The position numbers were made by a program, and so were the translations under genes. The notes beneath the pieces are model-generated. The model made no database searches and was not told the DNA's origin. It saw only the letters and a list, made by a program, of their open reading frames with translations. Below are positions 35,601-41,600 of a stretch of 64,000 nucleotides of DNA, one piece after another; positions within the stretch are counted from its first letter, which is position 1; each line of letters starts with the position of its first letter. The DNA comes from Nymphaea colorata (taxonomy: Eukaryota; Streptophyta; Magnoliopsida; Nymphaeales; Nymphaeaceae): positions 6,346,575 to 6,410,574 of the forward strand of contig NC_045144.1 of assembly GCF_008831285.2 (NCBI RefSeq). The letters are read 5' to 3'.

Positions 35601-38600
35601 TTCAAGAGACTCCCTTACCAAGGCACTAATGTGCTTGACAGGTTGAACAATTCTTGGGACAGCAACCCAGGGCCACCACAACAATTATCAAGTTCCTTCG
35701 GTCCATGGCTCTGATATCATGTGAAAAATCTCAAAAAATGAGGTCCAAAGGTCAAGCGTTGAACCACAGATAAGACTTGAGAACTAGTCGCCAAGAACCA
35801 GCACAAGGAGAACTAAAAACAATTGATTCGAGCCACAAGATAAAATAATAGTTTATGCATCACGTAGGTCTCAAACTTGCTATTTTAGTCTTGTGAATAG
35901 TTTATTCATCACATAGGAGTAAACGTTCACAAAATAGCACTAAAACTTGCTTATTTTAGTCTTCTATAATTTATTTCTGTAGAAAAATATGTAGGAGGCA
36001 TTTCCCATGTTTGATTTGGAAATATAAAAATGGAATTTTCCTTTCTGGCCTGTCAGCTTCACAAGCAAAGCCATATCCGTTCCCAGATAGCCAACCTATG
36101 TTTGGAACTTGGAAGGCTCGTGTAAGTCCTTCCTCCATCACTGTGCTTCTGCCATCACCTTTGTTCTACACCTGCATGTAAACCTAAACATAGTCCTTGT
36201 GCATTTACACTCATGTGTGTCTGGTTGTCTAAGGTCCCTGTTTCAGTTAAATGTTAGCCGTAACTGCAAATCATCCATCATAAGCATGAAACCTTATGCA
36301 GGCAACATGAAGAAGTATAATAAGCATCACATAGTGAATGCTGCATTAGATTAATCTATGTTAGGCTGCAATTCTATATGCTTTTATTAAATTAAACATC
36401 AGTCCTTGTTGGTGTTAGACGACTCACAAATGGCCCTTTGTAGTACAAGCAATTAGGTGTGAAAACATCATTGAATGATTGAAATTGCCACATGGTAACA
36501 ATATGGATTTCAATTTGAATCTACACCTGCGTGGCTTATTCATGCCGCTGATTTATGCAAACAAAAATTGTGGGGGAGGTTGACCCTCTTCTACCAAGTG
36601 GAAATTTGTCTCCCTAGTCTCCATGTTTTGGTGTTTGTTCTTATTTCTGATGAATATCTCATACTATGTTTGGTTATTTTCTTGTAAAGGTTGCTGCATG
36701 GAAAGATAGTGATGGAGATTGGTATGAAACTGGCCTACATATATTCTGTAAGCTTCTAACTGTGATTTTGTTGGCATTGAACTACATGAGATTTAATGTA
36801 CAACAAGATCTCGTATATCTGCTTGTGTCAGCTGTTATAAGCAAAGTCCTTTAAGCTGGAACAGAATTTCTGAAATTGCAATTTCTTGCCAAGCACTCAA
36901 AAAGAATAATGATGCATGTCATTGTAGTAATACTAAGGCAAGCCTGAGTCCCTTGCTGTGGAAAAGAAGAAAATGAACACTTGAAGGATGCCAATAGATG
37001 ATCAGAAAGCTTGTTGCGACGTTTGACTGAGTTCATCAAGTTGATAATATTTGTAGACATGGAAAGCAGAAATTAAGTCTGTCTGCAGAGCTTAAGCATG
37101 ACTATTATGCTTAAAACAGTTGTAAATGAAAGAAAGAAAACGTTTCCTAAAAGAACCATGTAACTCCGGAGTGGGTGCTGGCACTAGTGCAACGCTTTTC
37201 AAGAAATCTTGGACACAAGTATGATGGGGGTGTATATATGTGTATTTCTGTATATTTTAGTATTTAAAAGACTATGCAGCCCTAGGCAAGTGACGTTCTA
37301 GAGGGCTTGGGTGTTCCCAAAAAAATTGAGGGAACGTACTACCATGAACTACGTTACTAAACAATATTGAGGTTAAAGTAAACATATCGGAGCACAATAA
37401 TTAATATTGAAAGGTTAAAAATATAGGAGTGCATGATGTTTAACACTATACGTAACAAAAGCTCTAAAGTAATACATTAAGTGTATGATTATACAAAGCA
37501 AATTCTTAAGACAATAATATTTAAGTTAATCAAGACATGAGGGACTTTGAATCCAGAATAAATCTTGAGCGTTGGCTAGGTTCTTCTTGTTGAACACGAG
37601 ACCTTTCTAGAAATATCTTCATCCATTTACCTAGTGATGCATTTCTGCCATTAACATTAGAATTGGGAACTGCTTGTGGCAGTGCATCATCTTGATCTTC
37701 AGTATTAAGGGACAGTATACAGTAATGCATGATCTTGTTTTTTAGTATCAGAGAATGTTTCAATAGTACATCATCTTGATGTCCTATGCTAGGGACAATC
37801 TCTGATAAAGGTGGATTTTCCCAATCTCATCTTTCAACTCTATTTTTCCCATTCATTGTGAAATCTGATAATAAGAGTAACGAACAAGAATATATTATAC
37901 AGAAATAAAAAAAATACTCATAAATCAGTTATAAGTTAGTGGCAAATTCACACGTATACACTTACACAATCGTGTTAAACTTCTTCACAATTGTAACATA
38001 GGGTTATTACAGTTGTAAAGTTTTAACAGAAAAATGTACAAAAGGTTGTAGATTATAAGAAGAAAACAGTCTCAAGTCTAATGATAAAACGAGGACAAAG
38101 ATATGAAGAACGATATGTAACCTGTGTGATTCTTTAAGAGAGGGACGGCTGAGAAAGACCATGGTATCGCATATCAGTTTATGTCATGTAGAGTATGCAG
38201 GGTACAAGTCATTCTTTAAGAGAGGGATGTTTCCCTTTTACAAATAACAGTTTAGCTAGGAATTTTGACTTTTCACAGGCTTTTCTAGCATATGAACTAA
38301 GATTTGGAAGACTTTGATGCCATACTATCACAAAAACATAGATGTATGATGCCTTGATACTTCTTGTCATCATATTTTCTGTCTATGGATGCTTGTATAA
38401 TTTATTATGAAAATTTTTGTGTTCTTGTACTGATGCATGTGTCTTTTTGCATGGTTGTAACCTCCTCCAGTTGGGGCATATCCAAATATCCAAAATTTGT
38501 TCAATGAGCTTGGCATAAATGATCGACTACAATGGAAAGAACACTCAATGATTTTTGCGATGCCAAATAAACCTGGACAGTTTAGTCGTTTTGATTTTCC

Positions 38601-41600
38601 TGAAGTTCTTCCTGCTCCATTAAATGGTAAGTTTTTGAACCAATCTCAAAAGGAAAGAATGCTTGCTTGACTTTTGCAATGCCAAATAAACTGGGAGAGT
38701 TCAGTTGTTTTAATATTCCTGAAGTTCTTCCTGCTCTATTAAATAATAAGTTGTTATGAAGCAATCTCAAAGGAATGAATGCTTGCTTATGAAAGTTCCT
38801 TCTTAGTAGCCTGCACATATGTGCCACTCATTTATAAGTTCTTACCAGTTGAATTGAAATGTTCTTACATGTTGATGATTTGCTGTTAGTCTATTGTAGT
38901 GTATAACCTGCATTGTCAACAAGCTGTACAATCTTTGACTCTTTCTCTTTGATTTTGGATGTCAATGATGCATGCCACATTGTCTGCTCTTGGTTAATTT
39001 ATCAGCCTCCGTTAAATTGCTGACTACATGTAGTAGCATCTTCCTCCATTGATTTGGCCATTGATTCTTTCCACAGAACCCCCACCTCCACCCCCACCCT
39101 CTTCTTTGAAGCATTTCATCAAGTTATACTTTGTAATATCTGTCTGTTTCATTCTGTAAAGTTGGCAGAAAAACATGGCTATAGTTGACAAATGAAATGA
39201 TAGAAGAAATAAGGTTTAAGTATGTAAGTTGCTCACTGTTTAGAAATAAGTAGAGAAGAAAATGCCAGTGTAACTAGGTGTTTAGAAGCACATACAGGGG
39301 ACATGGTGTAACTTTATTGCTGTGTGTATATGTGTGCATGTATCTAACAAAAGAGAGAGAGAGCCATTTCAAATGGTCACATCTGTAAGTGTTTTTGATT
39401 TTTCGTAAGATGTGGATGCGTTCGTAATTCTTCTCTACTAGAGCACATCCTGAGGACCATAATATTTACAAATGGGTGATGTAGTTTTTGTCATTTCATC
39501 TGCAATACCTTATTGAGGCATTTTTGGTTGATCATTTCATGTACCAATTCAAAATTGTCAATACTTCTGTTTTACCTTTTAATTCGGGTTTTTGGTTGAT
39601 CATTTCATGTACCAATGCAAAATTGTCAATACTTCTGTTTTACCTTTTAATTCGGAGCCTGAAGTCATATTTTATTTTTGCATGCAATGTGCTTCTTTGA
39701 TGTTGAGAGTTCTGACTTACCTTGTACTATGATGTGATTGATGTCCTACTGGTTGTCCTACTTGGTTGCACGATATGCTTACATGTTTGGTACTTTATTT
39801 TAGCATTTCTGTTTTCACTTCATGAGTACTATTTGCAGGGATCTGGGCCATCCTAAGGAATAATGAGATGCTAACTTGGCCCGAAAAAATTCGTTTTGCA
39901 ATTGGACTTCTTCCAGCAATGCTTGGAGGCCAAGAATATGTTGAAGCTCAGGATGGCTTGACTGTGAAGGAATGGATGAAAAGGCAGGCATGAGTAAAGA
40001 TTGCTATGGTTCCTTGCTTTTGCTTTTTAATTGGGACTTCAATCTTTGTTGTAGTTGCTGATGGCAGTGAAAGAGTATAAAATTAAACTTGGCTGTGAAA
40101 GTGGGAAAGTTGAATTGCATGGCCATCCCATTCCATCTAGTTGTTCCATATGCACAAATTCTTATGGAGGAACCATTTTCTAATAAGTTGGCTTTAAAGT
40201 CTTTTGCACTTCCATCAGGATTACATTTTGTTTTATAAGGCCATCTTGGGCCAACCATTTATCTAAAGGTCTCTTAACAATTTCTCATGTTTGGTATTTG
40301 TAGAGGGTTGCCATTTCTTCATTCAATGCTTCTACCCAGTTTCTAGACTGGCTAACATGAAAGTAACATTTAAGTTCCTCTTGAGAGCCAGTAGCTGCAA
40401 GGAAAATCTAATGATCCTCTTAAAAATTTCCACAGTTGACCTTTCTCTCTAAGGATGATGTCCATGAGTTGGCCTTCTGAAAACTATGGGATTTTTACTT
40501 GTGTAAACCAATTTTTCAATCCCATCATATATTCATGTCCTTCTATGCATCTATTTGTTTTCTGATCCTGCAATGCTTTCTAGTTCCTAAATCGCTGGCG
40601 CTTAGGTGATGTACTGCCTTGAATAATACCATGAATAGGGGTATCCATGGCAGGCTTATCTTTGTTTTCAGTCAATGTTAAACTTTAAGGGTATGCTGAT
40701 TTTCGATTTGACACATGATTTCTACCTGTTAAATACAATATCTGCCACTTTAATTTGAAAAGGTTTCTTTTGTGAGCATTATGCAGCTAATTCATCACCT
40801 GGAGCATATTTGCTTCAAAATATTTCTCTATTTCACTATACTTTGTATTAAAATGTTTGCAGCAAAGATACTTTATCGTACAGACTGGATCAGTTCATCT
40901 CTATATGTATATTTTCAATAAAAATCAATACATGTGTGTGATTAGAAATATATTTTATGATCTCCTGATATCGTCCAGCAATTGATTTTATCTCAAGTGC
41001 AGACTGGATCAATTAATCTCTATTTGTCTATTTCTGATAAAACTTAATACGTAAGTATGATTAGAAATATATTTTGTGATCTCCTGATATTGTCCAACAA
41101 TTGATTTCATCTTATCTGTCTTGCCAAAAACTTCAGGCACAAGGTTGGATTAAATTCAATGACCTATTCAACGTTTTATTTATTTTTGCTTGCTCATTGA
41201 AATTCAACTATTTGCTCATTGAGATTGCTTCCCCTGAGGTCCACAGCATATGAAATAGGTCCTTATTGCAGTGAGGTTGATTTCATTTCATTCAATGTCG
41301 CATTTGTAGCAAAAGCAAGAGTTTTTCTGTTGGCAAGACAGCTGTATACCAAACATGATGAATGCATTTTCACTTGCTACTTGATATTGAGTTTCTATTT
41401 GTCTTGATATGTATGTCCATGATGTTATGTACCTTATTTCTTATTCTTTGCTTATGGTTATTCTGGAAACTGAATTGTAGGGTGTTCCTGATCGAGTAAA
41501 TGATGAAGTCTTTATTGCAATGTCCAAGGCTTTGAACTTCATAAATCCAGATGAGTTGTCAATGCAATGTATTTTGATTGCACTGAATCGGTTTCTTCAG

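Follow-up and report, generated by a model that had tools for sequence, protein, structure and literature searches.

The exon 5/intron 5 border of the PDS gene of Nymphaea colorata carries an old tandem duplication whose second copy has decayed and lacks a usable donor

Introduction

What becomes of an essential gene when the end of one of its coding exons is duplicated, together with the splice donor, into the intron that follows? The question is raised by the PDS (phytoene desaturase) gene, a carotenoid gene, of the water lily Nymphaea colorata, which was analysed here within a single stretch of 64,000 nucleotides (the window). An earlier note on this DNA had described, directly downstream of the end of exon 5, a second copy of that end in a decayed state. 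Its meaning depends on whether the repeat is real, on what the second copy could ever have contributed to a transcript and on whether its donor was lost by drift or was removed by selection.

The PDS gene and its fifth coding exon

In the exon model of the gene, exons 3-14 were placed by splice-site patterns and exons 1-2 were added afterwards; the spliced coding sequence contains 580 codons and no internal stop (Table 1). Residues 92-575 align without gaps to residues 1-484 of the rice PDS (5MOG; E = 1.2e-291), and the match to the curated family TIGR02731 (15-cis-phytoene desaturase) scores 860.5 bits against a cut-off of 569.4 and covers positions 1-452 of the 453 in the profile, so that the product belongs to that family. 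The earlier note's label of PDS exon 5 is correct by the family, by the rice protein and by the exon model alike. Judged by the reading frame, donor 1 is the functional donor of this exon, and it is probably the only one in use there today. A DNA search with a 361-bp query, on which the copy number of PDS rests, found a single place in the assembly, scores being given to the best candidates alone; another source for copy 2 was rejected on the same result.

Elsewhere in the gene, exon 6 ends in CAG/GCATGA (39985-39995), such that intron 6 appears to be of the GC-AG kind; the next GT (39994) would append GCATGA, and with it an in-frame stop. Intron 7 holds a decayed retrotransposon fragment at 42600-43750, presumably Ty1/copia-like, and beyond it a TA run (43834-43956). 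At the start of the window, an open frame of 1037 aa (58-3171) looks like a retrotransposon polyprotein, which we take to be of copia type.

Table 1. Positions in the window of the PDS gene, its fifth coding exon and the two repeat copies
Feature	Position	Strand	Basis or remark
PDS coding span	26615..50932	+	14 coding exons, 580 codons, intact; exon model, rice PDS 5MOG, TIGR02731
PDS exon 5 (5th coding exon)	38471..38626	+	Reading frame; aligns with rice PDS without gaps
Donor 1, ATG/GTAAGT (junction after ATG)	38627..38632	+	Its use gives an intact reading frame
Copy 1: end of exon 5 (78 nt) and start of intron 5 (41 nt), with donor 1	38549..38667	+	Repeat finder, global alignment
Copy 2, decayed, within intron 5	38668..38787	+	Global alignment (15 of 118 sites substituted, 2 indels); local score
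Lost donor of copy 2, two Gs flanking the former junction now A	38745..38746	+	Alignment
In-frame TGA on reading exon 5 through donor 1	38668..38670	+	

A tandem repeat across the exon-intron border

The two copies, of 119 and 120 nt, abut head-to-tail. In a global alignment 103 of 118 aligned sites are identical (87%), with 15 substitutions, one 2-nt indel and one 1-nt indel separating the copies. The significant identity on which the earlier note's account depends is borne out by a local alignment of the two halves, which scores 81 where 1000 dinucleotide-preserving shuffles reach a mean of 10.5 and a maximum of 19. A repeat finder returns an ungapped core, in which 38549-38636 and 38668-38755 match at 85% identity with a spacing of 119, and after it two shorter blocks spaced at 121 and 120; the list produced by Tandem Repeats Finder at a score of 50 lacks the repeat at 38549-38787. 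The copies are thus adjacent, head-to-tail and similar beyond chance, as the copies of a small tandem duplication are. The repeated 119-bp unit that had been proposed is real, although the bounds given for it (38552-38670 and 38671-38788) were about 3 nt off, and its composition is close to that described, with 78 rather than ~75 nt of exon 5 and 41 rather than ~44 nt of intron 5. At the level of sequence, the evidence supports an old tandem duplication spanning the border of exon 5 and intron 5, copy 2 of which has decayed and has no usable donor.

Copy 2 has decayed and has lost its donor

In copy 2 the donor G/GT has become A/AT (GGTAAG to AATAAG), precisely the change that had been reported, and the substitutions reported in its coding part are present at 11 of 78 exonic sites. 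Because 4 of the 40 aligned intronic sites differ as well, the exonic portion of the copy shows no additional conservation. When GT and GC sites were scored against the general nine-position donor consensus (windows starting at 38560-38859), donor 1 alone matched at least 6 of 9 positions. Ten substitutions lie within whole codons, seven of them nonsynonymous and three synonymous (the change from CCT to CTG counting as one of each); random changes would be expected to be 76% nonsynonymous and 21% synonymous, the remainder creating stops.

The altered residues were compared with the rice protein and with 80 related loci, kept from 81 found, all 80 of which have a tblastn match and two of which (L073 and L074) have titles other than cyanobacteria. 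Residues R205, D207 and P215 are altered in copy 2, while the residue of copy 1 is kept at each in rice and in 78 of 78 loci; the same holds for P200 (78 of the 79 loci with a letter there) and for I193 (78 of 80). Residue 208 is V (58) or F (20) in the related loci. The coding changes in copy 2, which strike residues conserved in rice and in bacteria, appear in the proportions expected of unconstrained DNA.

Not all of the differences lie in copy 2, since at residue 202 copy 2 and rice share E where copy 1 has Q. The codon is GAG in copy 2 (38697) and CAG in the live exon (38578). Here the change probably took place in the live exon, later than the duplication, as judged against a single plant reference and with the bacterial relatives, which have T (78/78), non-deciding. 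The GAG of the dead copy may thus be a fossil of an earlier PDS codon that the live exon now reads as CAG.

Reading through donor 1

The two donor positions today lie 119 nt apart, which is a frameshift, and exon 5 read past donor 1 continues for 14 residues before it meets the TGA listed in Table 1. Given the two indels, the ancestral unit could have measured 118, 119, 120 or 121 nt. With the four indel states each combined with the exonic part of either copy, all eight readings stop 4, 14 or 20 residues past exon 5, so that use of donor 2 would have given truncated products. A longer full PDS by way of donor 2 is ruled out, because read-through stops in 4/4 of the indel states tested. Transcripts made from donor 2 would presumably have been degraded. 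The earlier note had suggested that the two donors might once have allowed alternative exon ends; with the frameshift of 119 nt and a stop in 4/4 states, they offer no route to alternative protein ends.

The unit starts within exon 5 and leaves the exon 5 acceptor outside it, and copy 2 has therefore never been an exon in its own right. Two further candidates were rejected. A duplicated alternative exon does not fit the copying of 78 of the 156 nt of exon 5, the uncopied acceptor and the stops on read-through, and intron gain by tandem duplication does not fit a unit from which the exon 5 acceptor is absent and donor 2 has been lost.

Proposed history and age

The history that we prefer, and regard as very probably correct, is that of a 119-bp tandem duplication after which normal splicing was kept from donor 1 and copy 2 drifted as intron. 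The event in PDS would most likely have been the error-prone repair of a local break or of staggered nicks, and the duplicated segment would have run from the 3' part of exon 5, through its donor, into the first bases of intron 5. The junction shares 0-1 bp, as read from a single old copy, and points to no particular repair pathway. Copy 2 is internal to intron 5 because exon 5 meets copy 1 first; splicing at donor 1 would have preserved the normal mRNA and left the second copy inside the intron, and use of the donor of copy 2 would have brought a premature stop. Copy 2 would since have drifted, apparently neutrally, as ordinary intron sequence, and its donor GT has been lost.

Divergence was modelled with copy 2 fully neutral and with copy 1 assumed neutral at its intronic sites and at a quarter of its exonic sites; under these assumed fractions it is estimated at 0.085 substitutions per site per branch. 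As far as the published account of the water lily genome goes, a Ks peak of ~0.9 marks a genome duplication before or close to the split of Nymphaeaceae and Cabombaceae, which is placed at 147-185 Ma (PMC7015852). To the extent that this account serves as calibration, the derived rate of 2.4-3.1e-9 makes the duplication ~28-35 Myr old, or 15-57 Myr with Poisson error. Alternative rates of 1.5e-9 and 7e-9 would give 56 and 12 Myr. The age is thus roughly tens of millions of years, as an order of magnitude only.

Drift, selection or residual function

The alternative that survives best is that donor 2 was lost under selection, its use having given truncated transcripts of an essential gene, a reading that we consider possible but doubtful. 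It draws on the stop met past donor 1 in 4/4 indel states, and on the fact that both junction Gs have changed, where drift would alter two specified adjacent sites with a probability of only ~0.007. However, that figure concerns sites chosen after they had been seen, at the estimated divergence drift would change one or both GT bases with a probability of ~0.16, and a single case has no power. The earlier note's view that the locus shows how a coding-exon duplication is silenced inside an essential gene stands as regards the loss of the donor and goes too far as regards silencing, given that no acceptor was copied and that drift alone would lose the donor with the probability just stated.

It is very unlikely that copy 2 still affects the splicing of PDS, whether as a decoy adjusting how exon 5 is defined or how often intron 5 is retained, or as an exon-like binding region, although it lies directly 3' of donor 1 and 67 of its 78 exonic bases are unchanged; its exonic divergence (11/78) is as great as its intronic divergence (4/40), the changes fall in neutral proportions and it has no remaining donor. 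Were such a role real, a dead coding duplicate would have taken on a regulatory part from within an intron of an essential pigment gene. That one of the two copies is false, an artefact of assembly, is very unlikely, since copies produced by false duplication of one locus would not be expected to have diverged at 15 of 118 sites, with two indels besides.

Tandem duplications in the surrounding genome

The preferred history, that of a duplication left to drift within the intron, can be set against the background of similar events. A simple ungapped search for tandem duplications of period 30-400 found six in the window, counting the exon 5 case, and a further 19 in a sample of twenty 10-kb pieces (200 kb) spread evenly over the first 6.2 Mb of the 25.5-Mb contig, which makes 25 in 264 kb; a shuffled control of six 10-kb pieces of the window (60 kb) gave none. 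The ungapped scan misses gapped cases such as that at 20977-21083. Five of the six window duplications lie within the 24.3-kb PDS span, in introns 2, 2, 5 and 6 and at exon 5; the sampled rate of 19 per 200 kb predicts ~2.3 for this span. No hotspot is claimed in PDS, because five or more would be found there with a probability of ~0.08 (hand calculation). Given the scan rate, it takes no special cause for one duplication to fall on an exon border.

Two of the neighbouring duplications deserve mention in their own right. Intron 6 carries a two-copy tandem duplication at 40878-41112 that also has a period of 119 and is 84.5% identical; a link to the exon 5 unit was rejected, and the equal length looks like coincidence because blastn finds shared words of 7-8 bp only. 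In intron 5, the intron that holds copy 2, a 68-bp tandem duplication at 39521-39655 is probably young, since its copies are 98.5% identical.

Comparison with known duplications

Among the matches listed in searches on small plant tandem duplications, on exon and splice-site duplication and on PDS or Nymphaea, no paper described the PDS exon 5 duplication. It offers a clean example of what follows when an exon-donor border is duplicated without the acceptor: the gene model is unharmed, and the leftover copy lies in the intron and no longer has its donor. Whether selection removes spare donors could be tested on such cases gathered across the genome; a single case cannot do this.

Small plant tandem duplications of 10-1000 bp, attributed to inaccurate break repair, have been described in rice (Vaughn & Bennetzen, 2014, as related in the review PMC7407515). 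As far as that review relates them, the PDS repeat resembles these in being a head-to-tail copy within the same size range in a plant genome, with similar ones nearby, but it differs in straddling an exon-intron border and in being one old copy whose repair signature is unreadable without an outgroup. In the potato RdRp gene, as outlined in PMC4974935, an intron was gained when a duplication spanned the acceptor side of an intron; the first intron carries a further duplication, of 83 bp. Going by that outline, both genes have a small duplication across an intron-exon border with substitutions between the copies, and an intron of each holds a further tandem duplication. In potato, however, the acceptor side was copied and a new intron resulted, whereas in PDS it was the donor side, in a unit without an acceptor, and the extra copy remained part of the existing intron. 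The Drosophila cases, in which novel intron positions are ascribed to sliding or tandem duplication (PMC2891723), share with PDS, so far as that source describes them, duplicated surroundings of splice sites from which changed exon ends could arise; unlike them, the PDS exon end is unmoved, the protein being gap-free to rice PDS over 484 residues. Beside these systems the PDS exon 5 duplication is an ordinary event, a further instance of a kind already described.
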